Source: Liolophura sinensis | Taxonomy: Eukaryota; Mollusca; Polyplacophora; Chitonida; Chitonidae | Length of the DNA: 64,000 nt | Assembly (NCBI RefSeq): GCF_032854445.1 | Contig: NC_088301.1 | Coordinates: 20,145,808-20,209,807, forward strand | Direction: 5' to 3' | Shown here: piece after piece, positions 253-62,798 of the stretch | How the letters are laid out: every line of letters begins with the position of its first letter | How positions within the stretch are numbered: position 1 is the first letter of the stretch | Translations under genes and position numbers: made by a program | The notes under the pieces: model-generated | Seen by the model: only the letters and a program-made list of their open reading frames with translations | Told to the model about the DNA's origin: nothing | Database searches by the model: none

Positions 253-390
253 CTATGTCACAAAATTTCCCGGCGTGCCCCGGTTGACATCCACCCTCAC
301 AGGCGCCGGTCTGAGCGTTACACGGCTGTTCCAAGCAATACTCGTTACACGTTCTGACACAGTTATCTCCCCATAATCCTGGTTGACAAG
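253..390 (-). CDS. Gene A exon 9: EGF-like repeat
   Basis: A 138-bp phase 1-1 exon, CQPGLWGDNC, then CNEYC, GACEGGC and PGHAGKFCD, with a TTACAG acceptor and GTTAGT donor. In gene B the matching unit survives only as the decayed array at 45945-46575. Confidence 0.8.
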   Translation of the reverse strand, partial: LVNQDYGEITVSERVTSIAWNSRVTLRPAPVRVDVNRGTPGNFVT

Positions 391-17583: not shown

Positions 17584-18430
17584 TTATATCTTATGATATA
17601 ATCCAATATGTTTTAAGTAATTAATGACAGTATCGCCAGCGACACTGTCAAATAAATCAAATATAGAGCTGACTGTGTAGAATCTTTGCCTAATACGAGC
17701 AAAGTCCACACAGTCAACGAGAATATGTTTCATGCCGTACTGGGCATTACAACCAACACACTCAGGAGCACTGCTCCCATCTAGGATAAAATTGTGTGTT
17801 AGACGAGAATGCCCAATACGGCACCTTGTTAGAACTACTTGGTCCCTACGAGACCTATTAAGAGTATAAGAATTATTGCCAATGACAGGATGAATAGCAT
17901 GCAGTTTGTTGTGGATCTGCAAATCCCATTCATCCTGCCAAAGGCGACGAATATATTTAAGAATATGATATCTAAAATCAGTGTAACAAATTTTCATCTT
18001 CGATATGGGTTTATTAAGGGCAGCTTTCGCCTCCCTGTCCACGACTGTGTTTCCATGGATACCAATGTGACTTGGTATCCAACAGAATACAATATTTTTA
18101 CCTCTTTTAATTAGATTTTTATGTACGGCTAATATCTCAAGGATGGAAGGATTTTTAAATTTATTATTCTGAATTGCCAAAAGGCAAGAGAGCGAGTCCG
18201 TGCAGATCACAGCCCTCTGGGCATGCCCAGCAGAAACATATGACAAAGCCAGAAGTATAGCTCTGGCCTCTGCAGAAAAGATTGAAGATGAGGATGGAAG
18301 ACGAAGAGAAGTGACCCGCTGTTCTAAGACAGCCGCAGCCGCAACCTTCTCCCCATCCTTCGACCCGTCAGTATATATAAATTTATAATCTGGATAATTA
18401 GCCTTTATCTCAGAAAAACTTTGCTGAATT
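17584..18430 (-). CDS. LINE ORF2, RNase H domain
   Basis: Removes template RNA during second-strand synthesis. All four acidic sites of the family are visible: YTDGSKDG, SAEARA, ICTDS and a final Asp in VVDREAK, with WIPSHIGIHGN before it. It is offset from the RT frame by an indel near 18470. A Cys/His-containing tail (CVGCNAQYGMKHILVDC) follows before the stop at 17584. Confidence 0.88.
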
Positions 18431-18431
18431 A

Positions 18432-20270: not shown

Positions 20271-20288
20271 CGAATATACGGACCTGGT

Positions 20289-21245
20289 TTAAATTATTAT
20301 TATCAGGACAATGATTAAATCTGTGCTCGGCCTTTTTGCGATCCTTATGGCTTTGCGACAGTCATCGTCGTACCAGGGTTTACTTTTGGATTTTGGATTT
20401 GTCGAGGTCTTAGGTATGGTTCTATCAGCTGCTGTTAATATAAGTTCATTAAATTTTAAAAGAGGATCTTCTGCAGCATTGAGATTCTCTGGAGTGATGT
20501 CAGCCTCACAGAACATCTCAAATGCGATCCAATCTGCTTTATCGAATTTCCACCTAGCTACACGTTCTAAAGAATTAGAAGTAATATGTTCTAGGATTAT
20601 AGGAAAATGGTCACTACCACAAAGATCGTCATGCACCTTCCAAGAAAAATCAAGAAGAAGTGATGGATCTGTGATAGTGAGATCGATAGCAGAATAAGTG
20701 CCATTACCCGGATGTAAATAGGTATTAGAACCATCATTGAAATAACACAGTTCTTCCTTACACAAGAAGTCTTCGACTATCTTGCCCTTATTATTTATGT
20801 TATTACTGCCCCATAGAGGGTTATGGGAATTAAAATCTCCCATAATAATAAACGGTTTAGGTAATTGTTCTGTAAGATTATGTAACTGAGAAGCTGACAG
20901 AGAAGTGTTTGGAGGTATATAAACGGAACATAATGTGATTGTTTCAGACAACGAAACACGGACGGCCACAGCCTGAAGCTCTGTATCCAGAGAAACAGGG
21001 CTGTGGATAATATTGTTATTTATGAATATTGAGGAGCCGCCTGCCGCTCGCTCTTCTTCATTTGAATAAGTAGTATATAAAGAATAATTTTTAAGATTTA
21101 TTTTATCTTTGTCAGATGTCTTCAGGTGAGTCTCCTGAAGACAAAGGGCAATAGGATTTAGTAATTGAACTAGCTGTGTTATTTCAATAAAATTTACTTT
21201 AAGACCTCGACAATTCCACTTTATAATTTTATCGTATATCGCCAT
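20289..21245 (-). CDS. LINE ORF2, AP-type endonuclease domain
   Basis: Nicks target DNA to prime reverse transcription. Motifs in order: KWNCRGL, LCLQETHLK (catalytic Glu), VYIPPN, IMGDFNSHNPLWG, IDLTITD and SDHFPI. Its start codon abuts the end of ORF1 at 21245. The frame breaks at about 20289, after which RT-linker sequence continues in other frames. Confidence 0.9.
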   Translation of the reverse strand: MAIYDKIIKWNCRGLKVNFIEITQLVQLLNPIALCLQETHLKTSDKDKINLKNYSLYTTYSNEEERAAGGSSIFINNNIIHSPVSLDTELQAVAVRVSLSETITLCSVYIPPNTSLSASQLHNLTEQLPKPFIIMGDFNSHNPLWGSNNINNKGKIVEDFLCKEELCYFNDGSNTYLHPGNGTYSAIDLTITDPSLLLDFSWKVHDDLCGSDHFPIILEHITSNSLERVARWKFDKADWIAFEMFCEADITPENLNAAEDPLLKFNELILTAADRTIPKTSTNPKSKSKPWYDDDCRKAIRIAKRPSTDLIIVLIIII

Positions 21246-47700: not shown

Positions 47701-50700
47701 AAATCTAGTTTCACTTTCAGAGGGTAGGTGGCAGTAGCGCATGTATTAGCCGATCACGTGACGTTTCCACATGGCGGTGCTGTTGTAAAGCGAGCAGCCG
47801 GTACTTGGAGGTAGGAATATAAGCTATTCTTCTGTTATATGTTTTAGTTTGATTTTCTTTCTATATTTGTAATGAAAGTATATCGCTTTGTGAATAAAAG
47901 GAGCCCAATAACAATTACAATAAGCTATGCGGTGTATGGCATACAAGCGTGTCTATCTCGTGTTGCACTCGTGCAACATTGGTAAATACTGTTACACAGA
48001 AGCTATTTGGCCAAATTATTTGACTATGATTGTTCGTACTTTTAGATGGCGCAACGCAAGTTCAAAGACTCGAATGATGTTTTGGACATAGTGACCGCAT
48101 CTGATAGTGAAGTTGATGGGTTTTCTGAAGAATCTGATGACGACAATGATGGCTGGGGAGATGATAAGAATGATCAAAGTTGGCAACCACCTGACAACGA
48201 TACACATGAAGAAAGTAGTAGTGATAGTACCAGCGACAGTGATGATGATCGCCCTTTAGCTCAACTAAATGCAGAGAGCCAGCGGAAGAAAATTGTTCGT
48301 TTGAAGACCAGTTATACCTTTTCAAAGGACAAATTTGTACCTGTTGATTCTGACTTTGTACCAGAACAAGTTACGCCAGACCCCTCTAGTGACCGCACAC
48401 CTTACGAATACCTAAAGCTGTTCATAACTGACAAGATGATTGAAGACTTGACTGTGGAAACAAATAAATATTCTCTAGAAAAGTTTGGGGAAGAATCTAA
48501 GTTTGCAACATCAGAGATTGAAAGTTTTATTGGGATATATTACAGTATGGGATTGGTGAAAATGCCCAAAATTGCAGATTACTGGAAAATTGGACTGAGA
48601 TACCCATCCATAGCAGATGCTATGAGCCGAAATCGCTTCCAAAAAATCCTGGCATCACTCCACTTTGTGGATAACAATACTGTCACAGAGGAATTAAAAG
48701 AAGACCGCGTTTGGAAAATAAGGCCGTGGATAGAGAGTCTGCGAGGAAATTTTGCACAAGTGAGTAATACAGAATTCCAGTGTGTGGACGAGATTATGAT
48801 CCCTTTCAAAGGAAGATCGCTTCTACGTCAATATTTGCCCAAGAAACCCAAGAAATGGGGGTTTAAGCTATGGGGCAGATGTGATGCAAGTGGTTTCTTA
48901 CACGATTTCAATGTGTATCAAGGAAAGGGTACCGGCATTGAAGCTGATGGTGCTGATGGCTGTGGGCTAGGCGGGAATGTTGTCTTGCAGTTGTGTAGCT
49001 CATTGGAGCGCGATCGCGGCTACAAAATATTTGCCGATAATTATTTCTCAAATTTCAACTTGGCTGTTGAAATGAAAAACAGGGGATTTCAGTACACAGG
49101 CACAGTCAACAAAAACCGCCTACATAATGCACCACTAGAATCTGATAAGGACCTTGCTAAAAGAGGGCGTGGGTCGTACGACACCGTTACTCTGGAGGAG
49201 GGGAATTTAGCCCTTCTGAAATGGCAGGACAATAAGACTGTTACAATGATGTCTACCTATCTAAGTGCAGAACCCCTTACTAAAGTGAAACGTTATGACC
49301 GGGCACAGAAAGCACGCATTGAAGTTGATCGACCAGCAGTAATAACTGTCTATAACAAAAATATGGGTGGGGTAGACCTGTTGGACATGATGTGTACTCT
49401 CTACAAACGCCAAATCAAAGGACGAAGATGGTACCTATACATTTTTTACCACACTTTGACCATCTGTGTGGTAAACAGCTGGTTCCTGTATGAACGGGAT
49501 TGCCAAATAAATGGAGTTGGGAAAGCCCTCCCACTAAAGGTTGTCCAATCCCAGATTGCTGAGGTTCTTACAAAGAAAGGAAAGCCTGCGCGGCCAGTAG
49601 GACGACCAAGCCTAAATTCCCCACCTCCGGCAAAACAGAGAGCTTACGCCGCAGCACCTCAACCTGATGTACGGTATGACAATTACGACCATTTTCCCAT
49701 GGCCCAGCCAAAGCGTAACCGTTGTCGGTATTGTCCCAATGGATACACCCAGTGGAAATGTGGCAAGTGCAATGTGTTCCTGTGCCTTTCTCCTGGAGCC
49801 GAGCCTCGAAACTGCTTCCTCGCATACCACAAAAAATAACTGTGTGGTAAAGCATGGTATTGTTCAGACATTTCTCATAAGGCAAATATGCTGAAACGCA
49901 CTGTTGCACTGAACATGTTTGGTGTATGTCTATTTTGTAATTTTATTGCTTTGACTAAGCCAGTCTGCCCTAGTATTTCTTGAATACAATGCCTAAACTG
50001 TGGTTTCTTTTCTAATTGTGACGATACCTTCATCAAATTGCATGAAATTGCAGTTGTCATGTTTACTATAATAAATCATAAAAAAAACAATCCTTCCGTA
50101 TTTCTTTTCATTGTATCCCAATGTTGCACGTGTGCAACATTTTTAAAAAGTAGGTCACGTGGGTCCGATGGCAAAACTGACAATGGATTTGTTTATTTTA
50201 CATGTCTGAGGTTATTTATTCTCAAGGAGAAATTTTTTGGCTGGTTTCTTAATGCCTTGGGATCTAGAGGGATATTATACAAAATAAGCCAGCTGGATTA
50301 TTATTACGTGAAAAGTAAACATAAATTTGAACTAATATATGTATGCTTAGTTTGTCTGATAAATGGCGGACACAGGGCATTGTGTGTTTTTGTGTTGACG
50401 GGTTTCCCAGGGAAGTTCTTTCTAAACCCCAAAGTCACCAATGAAACACACTGGACTTTAAGGACTGTCAAATTCTAAAGATCATAAAAAATTTTCTTAA
50501 AACTTAACCTTAAAACGCAATATTCCTCTCAATCTTACACGTTTCACCTAGGAAAGATTAACACAGCTTCCTAAGGGAGTAACACAAATAGACATTTCTT
50601 CACCCTAAATTATGGCTACCTCCATACCTAAATCGAGTTAGAACTTCAGTGACTTACGTTCACAACGAGGTCCTGTATATCCTATGGCACAGCGAGGTTT

Positions 50701-53700
50701 CTCCAAGGGACAGTCCCCACTTACCCCGTCACAGACAGCTCCGCCATGACACTGACCACAGGTCTCCTTACAGTCAGGACCCCATGTATATGAGCTGCAG
50801 TCTGGTCGTGAGATGAATGTATAACGCGTTCAGCTAATACTTATATTCAGTAAAAAACCAGCATTATATAGTTGTTTTCATTACATATACAGGTATCCAC
50901 ATCCCCTGTTAGAGCTTTGCTATGTGTAACTTCAAAGTTATCTAACCAGAATTAAAAGTCTCCGGCATTGTACACAGTGCAGGGAAGAAAATCTTGTACC
51001 GGCAAGTCATATGTAAAACAACAATGTGGGTTAGAACAGCAGTGTGACCCAGGAGCCTCTCACCAATGCAGTCGCTGGGAGTTCAAGTCCAGCTCATGTT
51101 GGCTTCCTCCCCGGCCATGCGTGGGAATGTCTGACAGTAACCTGCGGATGGTCGTGGGTTTCCCACGGGCTCTACGCGTTTTGCTCCAACCATAATGCTG
51201 CATGCTGTCGTAAAAGTGAAATATTCTTGGGTACGGCGTAAACCACCAAATATATATAAAAAAAAACAGTGACGAATTTTTCCATAATGTACATAGGAAA
51301 ATATTTTTCGGTTCCTAAATCAAAACGCGGAGAAAAGAGAGAATGGATTAGCTTTTCCTGCAAAATCCAGGAATAAACCTACATTTAAGCATCCTTAAAT
51401 ATGGAAGCCGGATAAGACGGAAGCCGGATAAGGCCATCTTCGCAGCATCATGCCATGGGCGAGAAGATAACACGATGGCACGAAACGATGATACGATGAC
51501 ACGAAGCGAAAGCATGATGTGATGAGACGATGGCACTAAGCGAAAGCACGATGGCACAATGGCACGAAGCGATTACTAGCATTGTACCATCGCATCGTGT
51601 CATGGGGTCATCGCTTCATGCCGTCGTGCCATCGGCCTTAAGAAAAGTAACGTTGTGCATTATGGTACATACATTTTATTACTATAGTTTATATACAGTC
51701 TAACTGAATTTTCCTTGCAATAATATAAACGTGCAATATATATTGTGGTGTTACCTGTTACTAACGAAAGGTAATTTTGGTACCGAGTTCGACCGATTTT
51801 ACAAATAGCTGAATATAGGCGACTGACTGAAGGAAAGAGACTTTTGTTTGGCTTCTTGTGTGTACACGCTTAGGGATAAACGCTCATCGCTAAACAAATC
51901 CTACCAGGATATATAAAAATATCAGTGGCACGAAATGATGCCCACAGGGCACTGCTCTGAGAGGGCGATGGCACGAAGCGCGAAGCGATGACACGAAGCC
52001 ATGACACGAAACGATGACACACTAGCATCATCGTGCCATCGCCTCGTGCCATCGCCTCGTGCCATCGCTCGAGATGGCATGAGGCGTCGGGTATATTATG
52101 ATGGTTTGTTGACGTCTTTATCCGACTTTCATACTTTAAGCCTAATCTCTTTTGCATTGTTTCAATGTCATTGCATATTAAATCTGGGACTAATGTACCA
52201 GGATAAATGTGACGACAACACTGCATGTTGAGTAATTCTAGAGTAGTGACGTCGAAAAATTTACACTATCATCACTGCGATATTTTGTAACTAATTCTCC
52301 ATCAGTCACATCAATTAAGTGCGGAAATACATAGGTCTATTTTGTCCAGAAAGTTTGAAGAACCACAAAATGCACCTGTGCCTCTACACTTATTCATTAC
52401 TTGTGCCTAATTATGTCCAACTATTATGTGTCCAATATTTTCTTCAAGTGCAGCTGACTTTGTACTTGATGCCTATGTACTACCATTCTAGTCAGGTCGA
52501 GCTGAAGTTATATTTTATAGGCTGTAGACTAGTCATATCCCATTAACTTCTTATCTATGCTACTGTTCATTTAAGAGTTGAATTAACCTCTGCATATTTT
52601 AAGTTTACCTGTTATTTGTATGTCTACTAATGGGTTTTATAGTGTTCTCACTCATGTTGTTGTTTTGTTTTGGCTTGAGTCATTAAAATGAATGCAATAT
52701 CAGCAATTTTTTACCTGTCTGTTTGTGCTCGGCGAGGACAAAATATATTTTGCAAAATGGATGACATTTTGAAAAATGATTTGGTACGACAAGGACAAAA
52801 TCTGTTGTGAGGGTACTTGTAGCGGAGAGTAAAGATAAGAAACAGCTGGCTTGTCAATCTTGTACTTGGCAAGAGGACATGTTTCACCTGTTACGTGTGA
52901 CAATTTAGTAGCTACCACACTGTCGTCGCTGTCTTGGATTTACTCTCTATGTGTACGTCTTTAATTATATTGTATTCCTGTATAAAGCAAAATCCTGCTG
53001 CTGGACTACGGCATCCGCGAGGCCTGGTCCCTTAGCATTGTTTAAATGTGAATGTGTGTTAAATGTGATGACAACACAGGATTTTGAGTAACGGTAATTC
53101 TAAACCATGACGTCAATTTACACCATTGCATTGCTTTACTTAATTCTGTTAAGATATTGTGATTGGGTACGTGTAATGTGCTACTATTTAACCCCGATGC
53201 TCGGCCTTCCAAACTGCATATAGATAGTTCAATGTTCCCGGAATCCGTTTCGATCTTTTAAAACCTCGAAAATGGAAAAAAAACGGTAGATTTTGGTGAT
53301 CGGACATCAGGAGATGTACCCCAACTACGACTGAGCCACCCTTGTGATGCAGGCATCTTTATGCGTACAACACAGACAATCGCCATATTTTTACAACTAA
53401 TTTCGATATTATTCCATCCCAATGTATGGATTGTAAGTGGAGTAACACGCAGGATACTGTAAAGTTACATGCCACAGAAAATGCCACAGGGTGATCATCG
53501 TAAACACCCTTTTATCACGGAGGACTCGCTCGTAGTCGTACATGTATGAGACTTGCTAATTCTACCATGCTATACAAAAAGGGAAGACCGAAGGATGAGG
53601 CTTATATCCCGCTCCCGAAAAACAAATAAAAAAGAAAAGAAAAGTCGGGATTATCACTCGCGGAATGCAGTAGTTGTTTGGTTACTTGCTTGTTTGAAAC

Positions 53701-56700
53701 AGCAGACAGTGACCCGAACTGTAGGGTGACGCTGGAATTGCCACGAGGCTGCAGGGCGGCCCTCCTGTTCACACCAGACATAGCGGGCGCGGGATACCTT
53801 ACAGCATGCCGTATCTTGATGCCCGTAACTGGACTCCCATAAAGTTCAAGTTGGCATTTTATCAATCACTGTTTCTGTTCAATATAATTCAAGCCTTTTT
53901 TATGGTAAATATTACAGGTAAGCTCTATTGTTACTTTCACCGCTGTTGAGCAAGAGACTTTTCTACCTCGTCACTACAACTCACGATCCGCTGGCCCGAT
54001 ATCACAGATCCTCGCGTCGCAGCGGGTATCGCTCGACTTGGCCATAGAAATTTATAGTCTGTGGGCTGTGAAACCATGCCAAATTTTTACGTGGCAATGT
54101 CCAATTCGTGGCAGAGAAACTAGAGGAGAACTCATTTGCGTCATAAACGCATGTGAGTGAAAATCGGTCAAAACTGTTTTACTTGTGAATTTTCAGGGTG
54201 CTAATTAAGAGTTGCACACGTAAGGTAATTATAGACTGAGTCGTACGATGACTAATGGTGGAAGAGCACACGAGCCTAATGCATGGATTTGGCAATGCTT
54301 TGCAGGGCTATTCAATTCATAATCCCGGCAGGTGTTACCGACATGACGTCACCCGGCTAGGCCTTTGCCAAGCCAAAGTTTAATGGAATTTTTTAGAGTA
54401 GAAATAGCTCAGATAATATTTTTAAATTTAAGTATTGTGTCTTGAGAACATTTAGTGTAAAAAAAGTCGTTGGGGATCTCCTTTAAGCATTTACATGAAC
54501 AGTTAGAATAAAACTCCAACTGAGGTAAACTGACATGTATTAAGGTCGTATTTCAAGGGTTACCATTTGCTATCTATCATACTATCATCGCTTCTCTGGT
54601 TTTACTCTCTGTGCTGTACGTCTTTAATTATATTGTATCGCTGCATAAACCAGGGCTCTGCTGATGGACTAAGCATCACCGGGGTCTTGCCCTTTTTGAA
54701 TTCTTTTAAAATTTTGTGTGATAAATGTAATTGCAATTCGGCATTTTTAGTAATTCTAGGCCAGTCCAGTCTAGTTAATTACAATTCAGTTTTTGTAGTA
54801 ATTCTAGGCCAGTCCAGTTAATTGCAATTGAGTTTTTGTCGTAATTCTAGGCCAGTCAAGTTAATTACAAGTCAGTTTTTGTAGTAATTCTAAGCCTGTC
54901 CAGTTAATTACAATTCAGTATTTAAACATTTTAATGAACAATTAGAATAAAACCCCAACTGAAGTGAACTAACAAGCCGTCGTATTTCACCCAATACATG
55001 TGACTGTGTGTCAGCCATCACACTGTCGTGGCTCCTCTGGTTTTGCTTTGTACGCTGTACGTCTTTGTTTATATTTTATATTTTAAAAAATGCGCAGTTG
55101 TTATACATGTATGATGCATGAAGCGTCAGGTGATAACAAAATCAGGTCAACATTTACCTGCAAAAATAACCAAAGTATTGAGAAGATACAGGGTATATAA
55201 AGCACGAAATTAGGACGGGATCATGCAAAGAGAAAAAGTTAACAGTTTTCAAACACTTACTTGTTGTACAATTGTAACCCTGAAACCCACTCTCACACCT
55301 GGGTGATAAATTCGGACATTCACTGGTGTCCTTGTCACAAGCAGTATTATTCCAGCAATGTCCACATTCCTCACCACAGTCTGTACCCCATCGGCCATTC
55401 ACACACTCTGGTGAGAAAAAACACAATGATATTGTTAATTTCATATTTCTTGAAGTGAAAATTACATTCACGAAGACAATCAACCTAAATTTCAGATTTT
55501 AAATATAGTGCATACAAAATTAAGAGTGCAGGAAATCTTATTTCTCAATCAATGAGATTAGCCTAGTATAGAAGACACATATATCTTGAATATATTTATT
55601 TAATTAATATATCTTACGTATATATATATATATATATATACGAAATGCGCATAACTGAAGTCCAGACGAAAATATAATTTAGCTAACCTACACTTGTCCA
55701 CGTGTGACAGCAAATCTGTGGTCCTTCACAACGTAGAGCACGATGGATGACAGTCGTATGTTCCCACAGAAACTGTCCAGTAATTACGCTAAAAGAAACT
55801 ATCTCGGCCTTTACAGAAGTAAGTCTCCCGTAGTCTTCGAATATTTGCTGCCGTGTAATAATACATACAAATGGTTTCATAAAATATCTTAGATCCAAAT
55901 ACCAAGAAGCCTTGTATACATCTACATAGTGAAGGTTTGCAGATCTGAGTACTTGACTGCCGCTTACTTTCACACCTAAGTCCATCGTCATCACATTGAT
56001 AGCAGCACGTGTCTGTCACACATTCCTTGTCACACATCTCTCCATACCAACCCTCGGAACAAACTGTAACAGTGGAATAATAATAATAATCATACTGTGA
56101 AAGCTTATGACACACAGTCAGCGTTATTACTTACATGAATATGGGAAGACTTGTAAACAACAATTTATAATTTATATAAAGGTGAATTGTCAGGATTTCC
56201 TTCACTAAGAAAAGTGATATCTCACTGGCTAGAGATAGATATTACTTTTGTTTTTACACACCCCGACGCCAAAACGTCACAAAGAAACATGGTGTTTTAT
56301 GAAGATCCAACCCGAGCTTAGCAGAATGACGTCATAATACAAGTTCAGTCAACTTTAACAACTTTAACATTTCTTACGCCTCACATCTCACTCGAAAAAT
56401 ATTTATGATATTCAGCCTTCAGTGTGCAATATCCTCTATTCATGATTTATATAAAAGTGAAATGTCAGGATTTCCGTCACTGATAAGAGTGATATCTCAC
56501 TAACTAAAGTTAGATATCACTTTTGTTATTACACTCCCCGACGCCATGACGTCACAAAGAAATATTTTGTTTTATGACGTTCCAATTCAAGCTTAGCAGA
56601 AAAACGTCATAATAGAAGTTCAGTAAACTTTAACATTTCTTAGTCACGCAAGAATACACGACGTCACACAAGGCGTCATGTGCGACGTCATGCTATATAC

Positions 56701-59700
56701 AAAAAGCCTGTGAAGGCCTACAGCTAAAAACATTGCTTAAACTTGTTCAAATACAAAAATCATGATATTGTCAAAATATAAATAATAAATAGAATATTGC
56801 ACAGTGACGGTTGAACATCATACATATTTTTCTCCTGAAAGATGGAAATGATAACCTACTTGTGGGTCATCATTTTCACATCTCCCTGGAACATGATATT
56901 CAACCTTCACTGTGCAATGTCTTCTCTATATTTCATTGCAGCATGTAATTTTTATAATCGTGTACATGGAAAGAGATAGTGATGATTATACGATGATCCA
57001 GGAGATCATTACAAGAATGTGAAGACGATTATAAGATCATGATGACAATTAGAAGAACGTGACAATCATTGGGAAATGGTGATCGTAAAGATCATAAGAA
57101 GATCTTGAAAACAATAGGAAGACCGTGATTACACTCGTATGATTATTAAAACCATCAAAACATCGTAAAGATCATCAGGTACAGTAATAAACATCAGATA
57201 ATCATGAGAACCATCAGAAAATGAAGTATGTGGATTTAAAAATCTGGTGAAGTGTTCCAGCCATTGATACTTGCTTCGTCGTTCGTCATATGACTGAAAC
57301 AATGTTAAGCACGACGAACGTGAGCACTCACTCACTTAATACATGCTGGCGTGTAATTTTGGGGTCTAACGCCCGGCAAATGTTCCAAGCAGGAACCGTG
57401 TATTTGAACAGTTAATTCTGTCAATTGATTGACTAGTAAGTTTATATTAATCTAACTGATCAGAAAAAAAAATCATTTCCTTGGAAAGCGATTGGTAAAG
57501 GGTTGGTATGGGGATTGGTATGGTGTTGGGATGGGGTTTTCTCGCTTAACGGTCTGATGGCTGCTAAGGTACACTGACACTAACCACAGCTTCGGATCCA
57601 TGTAGCTCCTGGTGTTTCGTACTAGGCTTTCAGTCAGGTGTTCTTTGTTTAAAGGAAATTGCGACGTTCTGTGCTTTCTTTGTGGTTTATCTGTTTTCTT
57701 CTAAGAAAACCGACAGACGTCGTAATAGTGAAACATTTTTTGAGTAGAGCACCAAATAACAATCAAATGAACACATCGGTCACTTTCCCTAAATCTATTG
57801 ATTGTGATGTAATGGAAACAGTAGTGTCTCAATCAAAATATTATAAGCAATTAATCTTGCTTACCAAACAGTCGTACTTCACAAAGTGTCAACGGTGTTG
57901 ATAAATTCGACGGTAAGCTTATCCGGACCGTGTTCCCTGTTCTCGGGTTACCATCGTTACAACTACCGTTGACGATATCCCCAGGACCGTAGTCATTGTC
58001 TGTCGTGTCTGTATAACATGTACTGTAGCTCTGATTTTTGGTCTCCACACTCAGAGTAAAGCCGTTCAGTCGTGAGCCACCTGGAATGTATGTACATGTA
58101 ACATACAATACCGGACTGTGTTCGTGTAAGTAAAATTCATTTACCTACATTTACGTAAATAAGGACGCTGAACTTCCGGTTAACCTGATAGGCCTCATCT
58201 CGAGAGCATTATGGCTAAAAAAAAATCCGCAAGAAGTGTCACCGCTCCAGATTCTAAGGTTTATTTGTAATGAACCCTTTTGGTTTCCACTGCCTTACAT
58301 GACGCACAATCATCATTACTGGCTTCTGTGGTTTGGGGTTCAAAGTTTACCGTATACTTAATGCAAGAGCGTAGAGATATCATAGTAATAACGCATAAAC
58401 ATTTATCAGCTATGTTCGGCTGTGTGCTTTCGGTTTCTCATGGCTTTTGTGGAAAGTAAATCGATGCTCGTTGAAAGGAAACGTTTCTTTGACACCTGTC
58501 AGATATTTAGCTCTGCGATTATTAGTTACAAGTATTACTATTTTTTATTTTATATCTTTGTTGAAGTAATGTAAAGATTTATCTCACGCATCGATTTGTA
58601 ACTGATTATAACTGTTATCGGTGAAAAAAACGTACCAGTACGTATATCGATTTTTATTACCTTCTTCTACGAAGTCATAAGCTTACTCGCATTGCATTAG
58701 CCAATTTTTTCGCCATAACACACTCTATCTGAGAATAAGGAAACAGTTATTGCTCAGATTTACACACATCTAGAAAACGAAGATCTCGATGATCCTAAAT
58801 ACTGGCCACAATAAGTCATGTTACATAGGCACGTGTAGAACTGTAACTCGAAACCAATTAAATCACATACCTGCAGGCCCGAAACATAATCAGGAACAAC
58901 TTGTGATAGTTAAGTGACCATTGTGATTAGACTTGGTGAGACTCTTCATTGCGTAAAACTGAATGACAATCGCATTACGCAACTGGATCACTTAACACAA
59001 ATCCACCTGCTCTTGTATCCGATTAGATCACACTCACTACTAACCCATCGTTGAACAACGTTCTCCTGTATCTCTTGGTTTTGACGTCAGGTTCCAGATA
59101 TGGTGTCGATGACATACTGTCCCGACGTGTTGAAGGGATACTAAGAGAGGGGAGAATATAAACCTTGACCGCCGATAACTTACTTCGGCTACAACGGTTT
59201 CGCCGTGCAACCAAAAAAAATTTATATTTATTTATTTATTTGGTTGGTGTTTTGCGCCGAACTCAAGAATATTTCATTTGTGCGACGGCGGCCAGCACTA
59301 CGGTGGACGGATGCCTGGGCAGAGCCCAGTTAAAACCCACGCCCGTCATTAGATTGCAGACAGACCTTCCCACGTACGGCCGGAGTAAGGAGCCAGCATG
59401 AGCTTTTTTTTTTTTTTTTTTTTTTGATTGTTGTTTTACGCCGTACTCAAGAATATTTCACTTATACGACGGCGGTCAGCATTATGGTGGGTGGAAACCG
59501 GGCAGAACCCGGGGGAAACCCACGACCATCCGCAGGTTGCTGGCAGACCTTCCCACGTACGGCCGGAGAGGAAGCCAGTATAGGCTGGTCTTGAACTCAC
59601 AGCGACCGCATTGGTGACAGGCTTCTGGGTCACTACGCTGCGCTAGCGCGCTAACCGACTGAGCCACGGAGGCCCCAGCTGGACTTGAGCTCACAGCGAC

Positions 59701-62700
59701 TGCATTGGTGTGAGGCTCCAGTGTCATCACGCTGTGCTGTCGTCCTAACCACCTCGGCCACGGATTTTTCCGCCCATGTAAACAAAACAGTTTCACAAGT
59801 ATCATACGTAATGTGCATGCACATGCGGGTCTGTCATTGCATATTAAAATAGGGCATGCACGTTTTGAATTACGAGCTCACTTGTCAGAAAAGTCGTATT
59901 TACTTCCTACACATGGTAGCATTCTTCTAACTGGTTATAATCACTTACATGTATCTTGTCTGTTATTACAATTTCCGACTCTGTTGTAAATCTGGAATCT
60001 GTAAATATTGTACGTCCTGTTCAGTGTTACCGACCACCAGCTTCGTAAATCACTCTTGGTGTGAGTACAAGGTGTTTCCTTCAGAACATGACCCGCTTTA
60101 CCATCCACGGCTACTCCAGATTTGTACTTGCCCTGTTCATAATCAGATGACTGGCTCGTCTGCTGATTCAGCGCCACATTACCTACGAAATCAAATTGAT
60201 GCATTTTCTAATTGAATATTACACATCAACCCGTAGACTATAAACACCATGTACATATAGGTAAGAATCACCAAATGTAAAAGATATTATTGTGATCTGC
60301 TTTTATTCCATCTTTCTACAGGAAATGAATAACAACAAGTTAACTATGGATGTAGTGAAATACATAATATCTTTTGGAGGCCTGCACACATTCAACGTTT
60401 GATGGGAATATGTGAATGAGATGTAGGAATATGTTACGGAAATGGGATCCAAGTTTTACCTCCAAATCTTCTACAAACTGACTTGCTGAGTGGGTGTGGT
60501 TTTACACCATGTTGAAGAATATTACACTTGTATCAAAGCTGTCTCCAGTTTGTTTTTCACAGATGTCACCATGTTGGGTCAAAAGCAGTTACTACGGTCA
60601 CCTACATAGACGTTTTCATTATATGTAGAAAAGGACGTTATGCCAGAGGACGTTACGACGTCACCGCAAAACGGCCTTCAGCGGGATGTTTATTAAAACC
60701 GTCCTTGACTTCGCGCGGAAAACGTTTATATCTCATCACACACTTCCACAGATTATAACCACAAGAAAATCTTACAGTAACAGTTAAATGGTTAACTTTT
60801 GAAAGCGTGGATATATGCCGGTTGGAGATATTTCCTCCACGTGGTAGGTATGATTGCATTCAAGTAAAACTTTTTCACATCAAACGTTGATAATTTCATG
60901 TCTATAGTGGATAAGAGTTAATACAGAAATGGGCAGGGCTTGTTCAATTTCCTTGTTACAGATAACTATTGCTGGAATTAAATCAGCTTGTGACACAGCT
61001 TGGTTTGCTTACTATATGACTGCATGAATTACTTCAAAACAATGGGCTAATACTGCTAATAACTAAAGTCTTCCACTTGCAAACAAAACAACAAAATATA
61101 TTTGATTGATGTTTCCACTTATACGACCGCGGTCAGCATTATTGTGAGAGGAAACAATTTATTTGATTTGCAGAAATGTCTTTGTGAAAACATTTATTTT
61201 CTCCAGTTTATGCGGTAGTCACTGTTCTTTGTTTTGCCAAAAATCTCCAGTACACAGCCATCTTGGGTTCGTCAACTATCGCCTGTTTCCTTTATTCAGT
61301 CGCCTATATTCAGCTGTCTGTAAATTCCGTCATATTAGCTACCAAAATTGCATTTAATCAGTCTCATGTGAAAACACAAGCTCTACACATTGATACGTTG
61401 GACCTCCATATTCTCGCTCACTAAATAAAGTTAGAGCACTTTTTCTAATTCATAATGTTAAACTGCATAATCTCGGTTTTGACGTGAAGAACTCATTGCT
61501 TCGTTATTAAAAAAGTGTCATGGTGGATATTGGACGGAGTTCAATATGTTAAACTGCTGTCGACTTTAATCTAAACCCTCTTTCCCACACTGCCATATTT
61601 GACATTGTTCGCATTTTTTAGTATAATATAACCTTCACAAATGAATTATGTTTCATCTCTTGTAGTATATGATGGCACGGCAGTGTCATTTTAGAGTTGG
61701 GTGTTATGAAATTCTGTTACAAAATTCCAGCTAGGGTATTCGCTGATATAGTAGTGTTGGTTGTATTACTAAGTGAAGTTTGTTCTAACCGCATGTTGGT
61801 GCAGCTATTGTATAACAAATTAGGAAAAGCATTCTAAGTTGCATTAATGTAGACGTACAACAGATCAATGGTAGAGCTTGTTATCTTAAATATCACGAAC
61901 GAAAGGCAATTTTTACATATAGGTGAATATAGGTTATACATGCAAAATCCTGGCTATTGGGTCAAAGATTAGCCTCGGAACTAAAGTGTGAAGGAGCACT
62001 GATTGGATAATAATGCCACACAGAGAGTATCTGCAGTGATATTTTGAACCTAGTTAAAATATATCAGAATTTTGTCTGTTTTTAATAGAACTGAAAATGT
62101 TTGCCCAATTATTACTGCTGAACTCCCTGCATCACTTCCAGCAACCAAAGTTTAAAAAACGTTGGTCACGCTAGGTTGATTTGTTGAGATAGAGAAGTGC
62201 TAGTATGGCATGGTACCAGGCGAAAATTAGCAGATATACATTTTTGAGATTCAAGTTGACAAATTTACTACATAAATAGTAAGGAAAATCAATAAACCTG
62301 TGGAAACTATAGCCGACTAGCTAAAAGAAATGGACTAAATTTGGGTCTACTCACGTCTCTGACAAGTAGGCCCGTCCAAGGCCGGTGCACAGTTGCTTTT
62401 AAGATCTGTCTCAGGGTGACAGTTCCCGTCACAGTTACAGTTATACCGACAATTTTGTCCTGCACTTCCAAACCGACACTGTTGTTCATTAGCTGACAGG
62501 TAGAAAACAACACACGAAAAAAGAACCAGGTTTTACAACATCGAAAACTGAATTAGCTGGTCAGTGGTAGAAACGTATGTACCAGTAAAGACAAAGGAAT
62601 CAGTTAATATAATGAAATATGTAATGAAAATAATGGTATTACTGCGTTTATGCCATTTCTTCTTCTAACCATTTCTTACTATACCACTTATTGATAATCA

Positions 62701-62798
62701 CATGTGCATTCCAGTGTTACATACATTAAATAAATCCACATACCCTTCACAGCAAGCAGCAGCAAAATGGTGAAGATGAGAAACATTTGCGTCATCAT
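27650..62798 (-). CDS. Gene B: lectin-EGF receptor-type tyrosine phosphatase, complete 27-exon model
   Basis: Predicted single-pass receptor tyrosine phosphatase; the extracellular part probably binds a glycan or protein ligand and the cytoplasmic part removes phosphate from phosphotyrosine. Exons (complement): 62744-62798, 62355-62492, 59949-60182, 57865-58080, 55968-56063, 55261-55407, 50658-50801, 47437-47574, 44455-44592, 43788-43905, 43072-43202, 41582-41748, 39370-39457, 38404-38477, 37907-37943, 36742-36839, 35766-35891, 34825-34976, 33726-33861, 33264-33413, 32631-32730, 30860-30933, 30108-30242, 29823-29945, 29381-29529, 28724-28859, 27650-27724. Each junction is GT-AG and the phases are compatible throughout; they sum to 3,375 nt (1,124 residues plus TAA). 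Approximate layout: signal 1-19, Cys-rich 20-64, lectin-like 65-214, EGF 215-435, TM 452-473, PTP D1 about 535-830, D2 about 860-1124. UTRs are not defined. An additional EGF exon may be missed or lost at 45.9-46.6 kb. Confidence 0.88.
27858..28115 (-). mobile_element. SINE family 1 tail fused to another SINE-like piece
   Basis: 27858-27975 carries the family 1 tail with an internal poly-G run of about 20. 27976-28115 (ATGGAGGCCGCACCATG, AAAGACAAGTGGTCCTCAA) belongs to the family seen at 23540-23870. Either a chimera or two adjacent insertions. Confidence 0.6.
30976..32320. repeat. Element with long (about 280 bp) inverted repeats
   Basis: 30976-31250 and 32040-32320 are inverted copies of each other. 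Shared marks on the right arm are ACTCGTTAACTGCTGAGAGG, GTGGCTGTAGGGTGGCTGG, ACGTGGTAGGTAAT, TTCATGTTAATAGTGGATAA and GGTATATACCC, all matched in complement on the left. The right arm contains a G/T homopolymer at 32208-32250. The 790-bp middle has no ORF of note. Probably a non-autonomous DNA element; a diverged half is also seen at 8790-8880 and 60840-60930. Confidence 0.6.
32208..32250. repeat. G-run followed by T-run
   Basis: GGGGGTGGGGGTGG extends into a run of about 17 G and then nine T. It has G-quadruplex potential on the plus strand and is likely to be of uncertain length in the assembly. Confidence 0.85.
32390..32515 (-). mobile_element. SINE family 1 fragment
   Basis: TTTGATTGGTGTTTT, CGACGGCGGCTAGCATTATG and GGGGGAAACCCACGACCAT are present; the copy ends before the tRNA-like half. 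Confidence 0.78.
33051..33193. mobile_element. Short MITE with 18-bp inverted ends
   Basis: GGGCCCAGTTTCACAAAG at the left and CTTTGTGAAGCTAGGGCC at the right are imperfect inverted repeats enclosing about 105 bp. A related left end (GGGACC-TACAAAG) occurs at 30450 and 33970. No coding capacity. Confidence 0.6.
33264..39457 (-). CDS. Gene B catalytic PTP domain D1 (8 exons)
   Basis: Exons 39370-39457, 38404-38477, 37907-37943, 36742-36839, 35766-35891, 34825-34976, 33726-33861 and 33264-33413 encode most of the classical PTP domain that hydrolyses phosphotyrosine. Motifs appear in the family order: KNKSRYRNLVAYDHSRV (phosphotyrosine-recognition loop), DYINACYID, KYIASQG, MVWEQNTGKVVMVTN, QFHFTAWPDHG (WPD loop) and IVVHCSAGIGRTG. 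By my count the catalytic residues are Asp733, Cys765 and Arg771 of the 1,124-residue protein. The signature loop is split between two exons inside its Ser codon. All active-site residues are present, so D1 should be active. Confidence 0.92.
34042..34123. mobile_element. Short MITE with GGCCCGGTTGTTCA ends
   Basis: GGGCCCGGTTGTTCA and TGTTGAACAACCGGCC form inverted ends around about 50 bp. Sits next to the related GGGACC-type piece at 33970. Confidence 0.6.
34130..34745. repeat. GCCATAATTTTG-type interspersed repeat
   Basis: Contains GGCCATAATTTTGTTGAAAA, ATCTGTAACTTGTC twice, then AACGGACAGGCTGACGGATA and CCTATATTCTCCTCCGG. A shorter, diverged pair of units is at 27050-27345. No ORF. In the intron upstream of the HCSAGIGRTG-encoding exon on the map. 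Confidence 0.55.
35224..35320. repeat. 25-bp tandem repeat
   Basis: About four copies of a unit like TGCCGCGACATACTGCCGAT plus AATGA, in the intron between D1 exons. Confidence 0.7.
35370..35520 (+). mobile_element. SINE family 1 fragment, diverged
   Basis: GCTGTACGTGG, AGCAACCTGCACATGATCGT, GTGGGTTCCTCAAGGGCTCT and an ATAAATAAATAAGTA tail. Poorly conserved. Confidence 0.6.
36935..37200 (-). repeat. SINE family 3-like fragment
   Basis: Contains GGTGAAAGACAAGTG and a CACC-rich stretch, then GAAATCAGGCC and GCATACTGTATAC like the copy at 23540-23880. Strongly diverged. In the gene B intron after exon 36742-36839 on the map. Confidence 0.4.
37575..37815 (-). mobile_element. SINE family 1 copy, nearly complete
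   Basis: Tail, body (ACCCACGATCATCCGCAGG), B-box region (AGAAATCACGGCGACCGCAT) and a degraded head (ACCTCGGCCACG). Lies just upstream of gene B exon 37907-37943 on the genomic map. Confidence 0.78.
38025..38235 (+). mobile_element. SINE family 2-tailed copy
   Basis: Related to 13624-13905: AGTATAATGTGACTGTGTTG, GTGTCATGTCTG, TGGCGGCA, then ACTACGACGTTAAACCCCAA and a CATACATACATAC tail. In gene B introns of D1. Confidence 0.75.
38632..38893 (-). mobile_element. SINE family 1, complete copy with 9-bp target duplication
   Basis: A tRNA-headed SINE. On the minus strand it begins with GGGGCCTCCGTGGCTCAGTC (A box), has a GAGTTCAAGTCC-type B box, then a conserved body and a TTTATT-like tail. The flanks carry GTTATTGTT at 38623-38631 and 38894-38902. 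This copy serves as the reference for the fragments listed separately. Confidence 0.9.
39060..39310. repeat. GATGGCACGAAGC palindromic repeat, third copy
   Basis: Starts TATGGAAGTCGGTTAAAGTC and contains CGCACCATCGTACCATC followed by GGTGCGATGGCGTGATCG. Lies about 60 bp from gene B exon 39370-39457, so it may be relevant to that exon's downstream intron. Confidence 0.5.
39560..40228. repeat. Interspersed repeat R, uninterrupted copy
   Basis: About 670 bp in the intron upstream of the first D1 exon of gene B, homologous to both sides of the split copy in gene A intron 2. It serves as the reference that dates the L2-like insertion as later than repeat R. Confidence 0.62.
41582..41748 (-). CDS. 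Gene B juxtamembrane exon 2: acidic stretch and start of PTP D1
   Basis: A 167-bp exon starting with a very acidic run (EYDEDDEDDED), then the conserved lead-in of RPTP D1 (VPVEEFRRYM, then GFKAEFK). The AAG/GTAGAG donor in phase 0 fits the next exon. Open frame continues to a TAG at 41504, so intron retention would truncate the protein before the phosphatase domain. Confidence 0.8.
42490..43018. repeat. Diverged minisatellite (about 31-38 bp unit)
   Basis: At least a dozen imperfect copies of a unit like ATATCAAACCATCCAGTTCA plus TATGTAGTG. Two neighbouring units share TAATATTACACCATTCA and ATATCAAGGCGTCCA. An open plus-strand frame of 141 codons runs through it only because the repeat lacks stops in that frame. 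In the gene B intron between the juxtamembrane exons. Confidence 0.7.
43072..43202 (-). CDS. Gene B cytoplasmic juxtamembrane exon 1
   Basis: A 131-bp exon that completes the membrane-flanking Arg cluster (LRYRGLLDRRRRGL), followed by a polar stretch ending QQDDPLPQHNI. Phases join the TM exon and the next exon. No recognised domain. Confidence 0.78.
43788..43905 (-). CDS. Gene B transmembrane exon
   Basis: A 118-bp exon (phase 1 in, phase 2 out). A short stalk is followed by a Gly-Gly and Val-rich hydrophobic run (core GGVVLLLVVVVVFFII) ending in Arg-Arg, the expected stop-transfer charge. Topology is therefore extracellular N-terminus and cytosolic phosphatase domains. Confidence 0.9.
44455..44592 (-). 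CDS. Gene B exon 9 (last EGF exon before TM): EGF-like repeat
   Basis: A 138-bp phase 1-1 exon very similar to the exon at 47437-47574 (SNGTFGDQCQEECGQC, TCDHVNGTC, GDFCKE). The similarity continues into the upstream intron (about 44593-44800 against 50290-50470), so these two EGF exons arose by duplication of exon plus intron. Confidence 0.85.
44855..45215 (-). mobile_element. SINE family 2, complete copy with 13-bp target duplication
   Basis: A 361-bp tRNA-headed SINE. The minus strand begins with CGGCCCGGATAGCACAGTTG (A box) and GGTAGAGCGTCC, and ends GTTGAGCACGACGTTAAACC with a short CACTCACT-type tail. CGAAATGGATGGA is repeated at 44842-44854 and 45216-45228. A family distinct from SINE 1. 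Confidence 0.9.
45945..46575 (-). pseudogene. Decayed tandem array of EGF-exon units with an inverted copy
   Basis: About 3.5 units of 139-141 bp (marker GGGTAT at 46005, 46146 and 46285) lie in the gene's sense direction. Each resembles an EGF exon (NTCSENC, NVTTG, GGCHPGYTG) joined to the next through a 13-bp GTAATATACCCAG remnant in place of an intron. Frameshifts and stops prevent reading through. At about 46428 the array folds back: 46428-46575 is the same unit on the plus strand and is open there (NTCSENCTS to PGYTGERCDTG). Interpreted as unequal exchange plus an inversion, non-coding in gene B. Confidence 0.7.
47184..47352. repeat. Minisatellite derived from EGF-coding sequence
   Basis: Six tandem copies of a 23-31 bp unit containing CAGTATGACATCCTCC and a variable run of CA/TA dinucleotides. 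The unit is the complement of the GVC-EGGC-H part of the EGF array, so it grew from a coding fragment. It interrupts an otherwise collinear stretch shared with gene A (605-1170). Confidence 0.8.
47437..47574 (-). CDS. Gene B exon 8: EGF-like repeat next to piggyBac insertion
   Basis: A 138-bp phase 1-1 exon with CPGGTFGNQCREECGQC, TCDHVNGTC and GDLCKE; the reading frame is intact. Its acceptor AG is at 47575-47576. The piggyBac element's ATAT target copy begins only 12 bp upstream of that AG (47588-47591), so the native branch point and most of the pyrimidine tract are now 2.7 kb away. If the exon is skipped, the phase 1-1 structure keeps the protein in frame. Confidence 0.82.
47588..47591. 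repeat. Target-site duplication ATAT of the piggyBac element (left copy)
   Basis: ATAT directly precedes the left TIR, and the same four bases follow the right TIR at 50272-50275. The family normally duplicates TTAA. The empty paralogous introns read ACAT at this place, consistent with an insertion into an ACAT/ATAT site rather than a mutated TTAA. Confidence 0.8.
47592..50271 (+). mobile_element. Complete piggyBac-family DNA transposon
   Basis: A 2,680-bp element with 13-bp perfect terminal inverted repeats (CCCTCTAGATCCC at 47592-47604 and its complement at 50259-50271), flanked by a 4-bp direct repeat ATAT (47588-47591, 50272-50275). It carries one intact transposase gene with an AATAAA at 50070. 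Three TTGCAC-NN-GTGCAA palindromes lie inside (47609, 47963, 50124). It is inserted antisense in the intron upstream of an EGF exon of gene B. The homologous introns at 1215 and 44592 lack it and give the empty-site sequence. Confidence 0.93.
48046..49839 (+). CDS. piggyBac-type transposase, intact, 597 aa
   Basis: Catalyses cut-and-paste transposition by the DDE/RNase H-like mechanism. The N-terminus (1-70) is acidic and Ser/Asp rich, as in many piggyBac proteins. The catalytic aspartates fall where the family has them: Asp248 (VDEIMIPFKGR), Asp331 (IFADNYFSN) and Asp444/Asp447 (GGVDLLD). A C-terminal Cys-rich domain (RCRYCPNGYTQWKCGKC, then FLCLSPGAEPRNC) matches the family's DNA-binding zinc domain. 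There are no stops or frameshifts and the length is normal, so the element could be active. The start is the first Met of a frame with a strongly acidic N-terminus. Confidence 0.95.
   Translation: MAQRKFKDSNDVLDIVTASDSEVDGFSEESDDDNDGWGDDKNDQSWQPPDNDTHEESSSDSTSDSDDDRPLAQLNAESQRKKIVRLKTSYTFSKDKFVPVDSDFVPEQVTPDPSSDRTPYEYLKLFITDKMIEDLTVETNKYSLEKFGEESKFATSEIESFIGIYYSMGLVKMPKIADYWKIGLRYPSIADAMSRNRFQKILASLHFVDNNTVTEELKEDRVWKIRPWIESLRGNFAQVSNTEFQCVDEIMIPFKGRSLLRQYLPKKPKKWGFKLWGRCDASGFLHDFNVYQGKGTGIEADGADGCGLGGNVVLQLCSSLERDRGYKIFADNYFSNFNLAVEMKNRGFQYTGTVNKNRLHNAPLESDKDLAKRGRGSYDTVTLEEGNLALLKWQDNKTVTMMSTYLSAEPLTKVKRYDRAQKARIEVDRPAVITVYNKNMGGVDLLDMMCTLYKRQIKGRRWYLYIFYHTLTICVVNSWFLYERDCQINGVGKALPLKVVQSQIAEVLTKKGKPARPVGRPSLNSPPPAKQRAYAAAPQPDVRYDNYDHFPMAQPKRNRCRYCPNGYTQWKCGKCNVFLCLSPGAEPRNCFLAYHKK
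50658..50801 (-). CDS. Gene B exon 7: EGF-like repeat
   Basis: A 144-bp phase 1-1 exon with YTWGPDCKETCGQCHGG and RCAIGYTGPRC. The last intact EGF exon before the intron that took the piggyBac insertion. Gene A exon 1616-1759 is the same length and nearly identical. Confidence 0.86.
51040..51258 (+). mobile_element. SINE family 1 copy, head truncated
   Basis: TGACCCAGGAGCCTCTCACC, GGGAGTTCAAGTCCAGC (B box), GGATGGTCGTGGGTTTCCC and GAAATATTCTTGGGTACGGC are present. Lies in gene B intron 6. Confidence 0.82.
51399..52134. repeat. Palindromic GATGGCACGAAGC-repeat element
   Basis: The left end TATGGAAGCCGGATAAGAC and right end GTCTTTATCCGACTTTCATA are imperfect inverted repeats. Between them are arrays of a 12-14 bp word (GATGGCACGAAGC) in one orientation followed by its complement (51430-51630, 51930-52080), giving strong hairpins. 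A short relative is at 2041-2165 in gene A and a third at 39060-39310. Confidence 0.55.
54752..54928. repeat. 43-bp tandem repeat, expanded in gene B
   Basis: Four copies of a unit containing AATTCTAGGCCAGTCCAGTT and AATTACAATTCAGTTTTTG, starting at 54752, 54800, 54843 and 54886. Gene A has a single copy near 4699-4740, so the expansion followed the duplication. Confidence 0.8.
55261..55407 (-). CDS. Gene B exon 6: EGF-like repeat
   Basis: A 147-bp phase 1-1 exon encoding CVNGRWGTDCGEECGHC at its start and RCESGFQGYNC near its end, typical of MEGF/scavenger-receptor-type EGF repeats with eight cysteines. The gene A copy at 5136-5282 has the same length and nearly the same sequence. Confidence 0.85.
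55617..55641. repeat. TA dinucleotide microsatellite
   Basis: About eleven TA units in gene B intron 5. Not present at the matching place of gene A (near 5500). Confidence 0.85.
55968..56063 (-). CDS. Gene B exon 5: short EGF-like segment
   Basis: A 96-bp phase 1-1 exon with CSEGWYGEMCDKEC and paired cysteines, ending RCE before a strong GTAAGC donor. The frame stays open past this donor, but reading on to a later phase-1 GT would create a stop at the junction with exon 6, so this donor is preferred. The gene A equivalent (5899-5994) has the same length and donor. Confidence 0.75.
56155..56645. repeat. Tandem pair of about 200-bp units with internal hairpins and TGACGTCA-like sites
   Basis: 56155-56400 and 56447-56645 are direct copies. 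Each contains a hairpin around AAGTGATATCTCAC, then CCCCGACGCCA, a GACGTCAC/ACGTCAC site and CTTAGCAGAA-AACGTCATAAT. The pair lies in gene B intron 4 and is absent from gene A at the same place. Confidence 0.65.
56785..56925. repeat. MITE-like inverted repeat
   Basis: GAATATTGCACAGTGACGGT TGAA at 56791-56815 is the inverse of TTCAACCTTCACTGTGCAAT at 56899-56918. A further related piece is at 56411-56440 (TTCAGCCTTCAGTGTGCAAT), suggesting a partial copy. Confidence 0.6.
57268..57342 (+). mobile_element. SINE family 2 tail fragment
   Basis: CGTCGTTCGTCATATGACTG, then GTTAAGCACGACGAACG and a CACTCACTCACTT tail, in gene B intron 4. Confidence 0.62.
57865..58080 (-). CDS. Gene B exon 4: F-type lectin-like domain, second half
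   Basis: A 216-bp phase 1-1 exon. It starts with RLNGFTLSV, contains a Cys-rich loop (CYTDTTD and GSCND) and ends with TLCEVRLF, the usual last strand of F-type lectin domains. The acceptor chosen (pyrimidine-containing ...CATTCCAG at 58081-58083) keeps phase with exon 3. An AG farther upstream, at 58116-58117, would extend the open frame but breaks phase. Confidence 0.82.
59221..59770 (-). mobile_element. SINE family 1: one copy inserted inside another
   Basis: The outer copy is split into 59221-59403 and about 59677-59765; the inner copy (59405-59676) has a poly-T end (complement of its A tail) and a complete GGCCTCCGTGG head. A short AGCT is repeated at both junctions (59401-59404, 59677-59680). 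It lies in gene B intron 3; gene A intron 3 lacks it, so both insertions came after the duplication, or A lost the site. Confidence 0.85.
59949..60182 (-). CDS. Gene B exon 3: F-type lectin-like domain, first half
   Basis: A 234-bp phase 1-1 exon. Hallmarks of the F-type lectin / F5-8C fold are visible: NVAL near the start, QSS, AVDGK, CTHT, a WW-V-L strand and the IYNR motif followed by Cys. The domain continues in exon 4 through a Cys codon split across the junction. In classical fucose-binding lectins the CTHT His and an Arg-x-Asp loop after the NR motif contact sugar. Here the loop is altered (RVGNCNNR), so fucose binding is not assured. Confidence 0.82.
61090..61156 (-). mobile_element. 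SINE family 1 tail fragment
   Basis: A short piece with TTTGATTGATGTTT, CACTTATACGACCGCGGTCA and GCATTATTGTGAGAGG, in gene B intron 2. Confidence 0.65.
62355..62492 (-). CDS. Gene B exon 2: Cys-rich (EGF/laminin-like) module
   Basis: A 138-bp phase 1-1 exon between a CAG acceptor and a GTGAGT donor. It begins ANEQQCRFGSAGQNCRYNC and ends GPTCQR, with eight cysteines spaced roughly as in EGF/laminin-type modules. Gene A carries the same-sized exon at 12618-12755. The domain class is inferred from cysteine spacing only. Confidence 0.8.
62744..62798 (-). CDS. Gene B exon 1: start codon and signal peptide
   Basis: Encodes two Met residues followed by a short hydrophobic run (core FLIFTILLLLAVK) and then a GTATGT donor in phase 1, so the protein is directed to the secretory pathway. 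An upstream in-frame Met exists in B, but the paralogous exon of gene A has a stop codon between that position and the double Met. The start at 62798 is therefore preferred. Confidence 0.85.

Follow-up and report, generated by a model that had tools for sequence, protein, structure and literature searches.

Does the stretch of DNA analysed here (C7:20145808-20209807, 64,000 nucleotides, hereafter the window) encode two head-to-tail lectin-EGF receptor phosphatases, as an initial annotation proposed, and to what kind of receptor system might such genes belong? The searches covered the window and a genome of 609 Mb in 632 contigs; all results were computed from DNA, and the gene models and proteins are predicted. 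Neither Rfam families nor tRNAs were found in the window.

Anatomy and predicted catalysis of gene B

Gene B occupies 62798-27650 on the minus strand and comprises 27 exons, running from an ATG at 62798 to a stop at 27650 and encoding 1,113 amino acids (Table 1). All of its internal borders are AG/GT and its phases agree from Met to stop, bearing out an earlier reading of 27 exons that had given a protein of 1,124 amino acids. The transmembrane (TM) and tyrosine phosphatase (PTP) exons were first laid out using tblastn with an intronless two-domain PTP from C13, which placed them on the minus strand from 43.9 down to 28.7 kb. The gene model itself derives from an exon-chaining script that yielded 36 exons, nine of which, lying in repeats or lacking homology, were dropped; junctions were set by hand to those common to gene A or in phase.

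The predicted protein consists of a signal peptide, an EGF-like module, an F-type-lectin-like (FTP) domain on two exons, five EGF-like modules, a TM segment, three juxtamembrane exons and two PTP domains, D1 and D2. This is the layout of receptor PTPs (signal peptide, one TM, intracellular PTP), with the signal peptide and TM judged from sequence. Homologues of exon 10 occur at other PTP loci, for example at C7:20367741 and C7:20275579. In this model gene B looks like an intact type I receptor PTP with an F-type-lectin-like and EGF-like ectodomain, and the earlier assignment of lectin-like domain, EGF-like exons and tandem PTP domains to a single predicted gene is upheld.

Table 1. Positions of the exons of genes A and B (window coordinates unless prefixed C7).
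Feature	Position	Strand	Remarks
Gene B exon 1: start codon, signal peptide (by eye)	62744..62798	-	open from ATG, donor GTATGT, phase 1
Gene B exon 2: N-terminal EGF-like module	62355..62492	-	
Gene B exon 3: first half of FTP domain	59949..60182	-	H-X26-R kept
Gene B exon 4: second half of FTP domain	57865..58080	-	
Gene B exon 5: EGF-like	55968..56063	-	
Gene B exon 6: EGF-like	55261..55407	-	
Gene B exon 7: EGF-like	50658..50801	-	
Gene B exon 8: EGF-like	47437..47574	-	
Gene B exon 9: EGF-like	44455..44592	-	weak donor GTATAA
Gene B exon 10: TM segment	43788..43905	-	
Gene B exons 11-13: juxtamembrane, start of D1	43175-43072, 41748-41582, 39457-39370	-	
Gene B exons 14-20: PTP domain 1 (D1)	33264..38477	-	
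Gene B D1 motifs	34970-34825, 33861-33726	-	WPDHG in exon 18 (34970-34825); HC-SAGIGRTG across exons 18/19 (33861-33726)
Gene B exons 21-27: degenerate PTP domain 2 (D2) to stop codon	27650..32730	-	HCRDGLTNSG, no WPD
Gene A exons 1-2: signal peptide, EGF-like module	13007-12953, 12755-12618	-	13007-12953 is the counterpart of gene B exon 1
Gene A exons 3-4: FTP domain	7840-7601, 6418-6209	-	
Gene A exons 5-8: EGF-like	5994-5899, 5282-5136, 1759-1616, 390-253	-	
Tyrosine-motif tail exon after gene A, outside the window	C7:20143352-20143104		ends in stop

A Pfam search of the gene B protein, as the initial annotation had advised, recovered Y_phosphatase in two stretches (2.6e-133) and F5_F8_type_C_2 above cut-off (6.5e-11), but the expected EGF family did not appear: for the EGF-like exons of genes A and B none exceeded the Pfam cut-off. 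When searched together, gene B exons 5-9 did match the EGF repeats of Tie2 (2.3e-7) and SCARF1 (1e-4), so that 'EGF-like, divergent' seems a fair wording, the label being based on exon phase, cysteine pattern and these matches. Comparison with known structures matched the FTP domain of gene B to FBP32 (3cqo, 2.6e-15) and Anguilla agglutinin (1k12, 6.8e-5), while the closest solved structures by sequence to its PTP part were PTPRA (6uzt), PTPRS (4bpc) and LAR (1lar).

The fucose motif of F-type lectins is given as HX24RXDX4(R/K) (PMC5712786; here and below, PMC numbers refer to excerpts of the published reports). The corresponding motif in gene B is HX26RXGX4R, in which the His and both Arg residues are kept, the Asp of RXD is lost and the spacing is 26 rather than 24. 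The His and first Arg are present in each of the 11 FTP domains aligned, two of which (those of gene A and its copy A', described below) are identical; the last basic residue of the motif is absent from the FTP domain of gene A.

The D1 P-loop exon was found at all 14 loci considered (B and 13 others), invariably as AG[IV]GRTG, and the D1 WPD exon at 13 of them, each time as WPDHG, with none found at C15:36 kb. D2 reads HC-x-DGLTNSG, and both the P-loop Arg and the WPD Asp are missing at all seven loci read; x, read in B, is Arg there. Since D1 keeps its catalytic motifs and D2 has lost these residues, D1 should be active and D2 is predicted to be inactive. The tandem PTP domains of the initial annotation are therefore both present, but the second is without catalytic residues.

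Intron 8 of gene B contains a 139-bp tandem array of 3.2 copies (45956..46409, minus strand) composed of degenerate EGF-exon repeats whose frames are broken and from which changes in EGF number might arise, and a 27-29-bp tandem array lies at 47186-47350, also within an intron of the gene. An open frame of 597 amino acids in intron 7 (48046-49839, plus strand) matches DDE_Tnp_1_7, which we take to be of piggyBac type. On the 3' side of gene B, endonuclease, reverse transcriptase and RNase H frames at 17584-22207 (minus strand) mark a non-LTR retrotransposon.

Gene A and the tail-type sisters

The second gene was expected to be a further phosphatase. Within the window gene A consists of eight exons at 13007-253 of the minus strand, in phase, encoding 389 residues without a stop: a signal peptide, an EGF-like module, an FTP domain on two exons and four EGF-like modules. 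Fourteen blocks of DNA align between A and B over 63.95-50.26 kb, at 65-90% identity (78-90% in the long blocks), as expected from the local duplication suggested earlier; beyond these blocks, scattered reading-frame matches between the two extend down to around 46 kb.

Downstream of the last EGF-like exon, a tblastn search with gene B (rows at E < 1) gave no PTP match in C7:20136000-20145900. The adjoining C7:20126100-20136000 gave one weak PTP-like match (27 amino acids, 37%, E 0.14) on the plus strand, which we take as chance. What follows gene A is instead a tyrosine-motif tail exon, entered in phase 2 like gene B exon 11 and carrying the motifs YYNM, YETV and YDKI-x12-YTTL; its only Pfam hit was a below-cut-off DNA_pol_alpha_N (16.6 of 26 bits). 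Beyond the tail another FTP gene opens with a signal-peptide exon at C7:20132.0 kb, followed by FTP-domain exons (20125.4 and 20123.7 kb); a PTP is reached only at 20097 kb. On this evidence a phosphatase identity for gene A was rejected, no convincing PTP lying between its last exon and the signal-peptide exon of the next receptor, though a gene A transcript may read on past that receptor. A downstream hydrophobic frame was also considered as the terminal exon of gene A and discarded when a three-copy alignment placed the conserved open frame, the tyrosine tail, just upstream.

Over the stretch matching 20146260-20143050, a copy lying 84 kb away, A', agrees with gene A at 99.6-100% identity, two differences aside. 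The parts of A' that were read, namely its FTP exons, final EGF-like exon, TM and tail, look intact. Compared with it, gene A lacks some 483 bp, which in A' hold the TM exon, and contains a tandem duplication of 752 bp. Gene A, without the TM-bearing segment, is thus probably a tail-type receptor copy that is either secreted or broken, though the missing DNA may be an assembly fault. The proposal of two head-to-tail lectin-EGF phosphatases thus stands in part: a second copy with a like ectodomain is present, but one for which no PTP could be identified, with a tail exon downstream and its TM exon missing.

In single-protein searches of the genome, 11 loci were listed for this tail (type 1) and 29 for a shorter one (type 2). 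Type-1 tails have the motifs YxN[MT] and YE[TA]V, to which most copies add an ITAM-like YDKI-x12-YTxL; the one type-2 copy read has YDAW and YEAI. In an alignment of ten type-1 tails, the Tyr residues of [TS]Y.N, YE[TA]V and YDK[IVM] are present in all ten and that of YT.[LF] in nine. The C14 tail, which was left out of this alignment, lies in an open frame and keeps the corresponding tyrosines. The tyrosines do not rise strongly above background, since nine tails agree throughout in 26 of 82 columns. An ITAM is defined as YxxI/L-x6-12-YxxI/L: its spacing is strictly observed in seven of the ten type-1 tails (A and A' being identical), in nine if other hydrophobic residues are admitted, and not in the type-2 tail read. 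From these motifs we infer that the type-1 tails may contain ITAMs.

A tail-type TM exon lies near tails A', 20400, 18255 and 18597, near four of the five at C7:30 Mb and near that on C14; there is also one, more distant, at 5873. In the 9.9-kb piece read following the FTP unit at C7:17247 kb no tail was found. The TM exon is itself repeated in tandem, with a step of about 108 bp, at C7:18596237-18597280 (plus strand; L056; ten listed matches) and at C7:18255023-18255415 (plus strand; L045; four listed matches). Five type-1 tail exons stand in a row at C7:29998-30183 kb (minus strand) with no FTP unit listed upstream, and EGF-like exons occur near the one that was read (L047).

Shared arrays, divergence and alternative explanations

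FTP units, PTP catalytic exons and tails were ordered separately for each strand, so that neighbours are on the same strand by construction; as the FTP and PTP searches score the best candidates, the counts are lower bounds. At least 76 FTP units were listed, followed next by a PTP in 29 cases, by a type-2 tail in 21, by a type-1 tail in five, by another FTP unit in 15 and by nothing within 110 kb in six, leaving 21 of the 76 without an assigned module. Conversely, 29 of the 43 PTP loci kept follow an FTP unit, four another PTP and ten nothing. An FTP unit lies directly upstream of 26 of the 40 tail matches: five of the 11 type-1 tails follow an FTP unit, four a tail and two nothing, the corresponding figures for the 29 type-2 tails being 21, five and two, with one after a PTP. 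Elsewhere, in the single stretch G000:C12:21312-21371 kb, the STING ligand-binding domain (PF15009) was matched five times, and an intronless receptor PTP with two PTP domains and an open frame of 891 amino acids lies at G000:C13:7958970-7960595 (L001).

Dozens of predicted receptors of both the PTP type and the tail type share tandem arrays. A common ectodomain, neighbouring genes and different cytoplasmic halves, the marks of paired receptors, are all found here. We give about even chances to the proposal that these genes form an expanded set of paired lectin receptors, in which a receptor with an ITAM-like tail would be opposed by a phosphatase receptor beneath a shared ectodomain.

A competing account, which we consider unlikely though the strongest of the alternatives, is that of an ordinary expanded receptor-PTP family, with the tail genes a separate expansion that shares its ectodomain through duplication and without functional pairing. 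Duplication alone would suffice for a common ectodomain; numerous receptor PTPs are transcribed in oyster hemocytes (PMC13070813), and a clam has an expanded PTP-like family with 13 genes (PMC8905726). The modules are, moreover, unevenly mixed: tails occur in runs at C7:17.27-17.37 Mb, and no tail match is listed on C15 in spite of its PTP genes. Against this account stands the order of the arrays. When copies in the flanking contig were counted, as had been suggested, C7:20.10-20.45 Mb proved to hold nine ectodomains with one module each, six PTP and three tails, and the same ectodomain-module order, with one exception and again with both kinds of module, is seen at 5.84-6.35 Mb. Selective constraint on the type-1 tail and the conservation of its tyrosine motifs between C7 and C14 also argue against it. 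That constraint was assessed through pairwise Nei-Gojobori dN/dS, the median for the ten type-1 tails being 0.27, with values above 1 in none of the 43 usable pairs out of 45.

The lectin heads behave differently from the phosphatase domains. Among seven PTP genes, the FTP domain has a median dN/dS of 0.70, exceeding 1 in three of 21 pairs, as against a median of 0.14 for D1 (three exons) and a value of 0.33 for D2 (four exons), neither of which exceeds 1 in any of the 21 pairs; the recognition role suggested by the initial annotation is plausible in view of the gap between FTP and D1. For all 11 FTP domains the median is 0.60, with values above 1 in ten of 54 usable pairs. A test for general positive selection on the lectin nevertheless did not show it. 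In ten genes (A' dropped) FTP coding divergence is below that of the flanking non-coding DNA (0.245 versus 0.371 and 0.162 versus 0.366) and each FTP exon exceeds its flanks in only seven of 45 pairs, so that the lectin, although fast, does not support such selection. Flanking DNA has itself diverged further around FTP exons than around PTP exons. In the comparison of A with B, the divergence of exon 2 is 0.275 against 0.123 for its flanks (p 8e-5), the sole significant excess and from a single pair; exon 3 gives 0.226 against 0.174 (p 0.15), exon 4 shows no excess (0.129 against 0.149), and in EGF-like exons 5-7 divergence is far below that of the flanks.

A further alternative is recognition at the egg or sperm surface rather than immunity, with the F-type lectin heads reading fucosylated gamete glycans. 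In oyster sperm bindins, which are F-type lectins, the fucose pocket is indeed under positive selection, but the bindins are described as acrosomal proteins with between one and five F-lectin domains (PMC5712786), and broad receptor-PTP and draper-like families are expressed in eastern oyster hemocytes (PMC13070813); we regard a gamete role as improbable. Finally, introns of several kb in a gene model made from DNA alone might suggest that the lectin/EGF exons and PTP exons belong to separate neighbouring genes wrongly chained, but this is very improbable because exon 9 of gene B is 549 bp from the TM exon with matching phase, because a same-strand FTP exon is the nearest upstream neighbour of 29 of 31 PTP loci in FTP clusters (a strand-blind list read by eye, spanning several strand switches; exceptions C15:219.7 kb and C23:338.2 kb), and because the signal-peptide/exon-2-type matches listed in the window lie only at the starts of A and B.

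A candidate system of paired lectin receptors

Returning to the proposal of paired receptors, gene B resembles known receptor PTPs (PTPRA, PTPRS and LAR) in its single TM, tandem PTP domains, D1 motifs and weakened D2, and differs from them in its F-type-lectin-like and EGF-like ectodomain, large tandem expansion and PTP-less sisters. Vertebrate receptor PTPs have Ig/FN3, MAM or carbonic-anhydrase ectodomains. With F-type lectins (FBP32, Anguilla agglutinin, oyster sperm bindin) the genes share a fold family by sequence, the His and first Arg and fast divergence, but here the domain sits on a predicted transmembrane signalling receptor, in addition to the motif differences described above. Titles and abstract openings searched revealed no F-type-lectin/PTP receptor, although subscription journals and named mollusc protein annotation may hold one.

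The tail-type sisters are like Draper, Megf10 and CED-1 in their EGF-like repeats, single TM and tyrosine tail with ITAM-like spacing. They differ in their F-type-lectin-like head; of the two features characteristic of Draper and Megf10, Pfam matched no EMI domain in genes A and B, and by eye there is no NPxY in the ten type-1 tails. ITAMs are reported in Draper and Megf10, and the phosphatase opposing Draper in the fly is the cytosolic Corkscrew (PMC8092387), whereas here a receptor PTP is proposed for that part. The FF/FcoR genes of Botryllus likewise form neighbouring receptor pairs, with co-receptors bearing ITIM or hemITAM motifs (PMC12065747), and like vertebrate NK receptors have opposite-looking cytoplasmic halves. 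The chiton genes are arranged in a similar way, with a shared ectodomain, but their inhibitory candidate has its own PTP domains in place of an ITIM.

The anatomy and catalytic motifs of gene B, the tail exons of its sisters, the arrays that they share and the selective constraint are computed; transcription, a ligand, kinase docking, opposition in one cell and immune use are inferred, most likely along the following lines. The lectin heads would bind the same or related glycan ligands. Src-family kinases would phosphorylate the tail receptors, on which SH2 proteins would dock, leading to activation; ligand would also co-recruit the PTP receptors, which would dephosphorylate the tail receptors and so set a threshold. 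The inhibitory partner would in this way bring its own phosphatase into paired activating/inhibitory recognition. We advance only tentatively, at somewhat less than even chances, the specific form in which an activating member with an ITAM-like tail faces an inhibitory member with a built-in PTP, both under fast lectin heads, and in which one receptor dephosphorylates the other directly without ITIM/SHP adaptors.

Rapidly evolving paired activating and inhibitory receptors are a hallmark of vertebrate NK biology. Such receptors have also been described from tunicate histocompatibility (PMC12065747). If the proposal is true, these genes would represent a second solution, with the eraser enzyme inside the inhibitory receptor and combined with a lectin head, and the balance of recognition in animals without antibodies would become directly testable. 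In circulating agranulocytes of the eastern oyster, Draper-family receptors are reported by the dozen, along with more than 40 receptor PTPs, and the proposal might give a function to the many receptor PTPs and draper-like genes of oyster hemocytes (PMC13070813).
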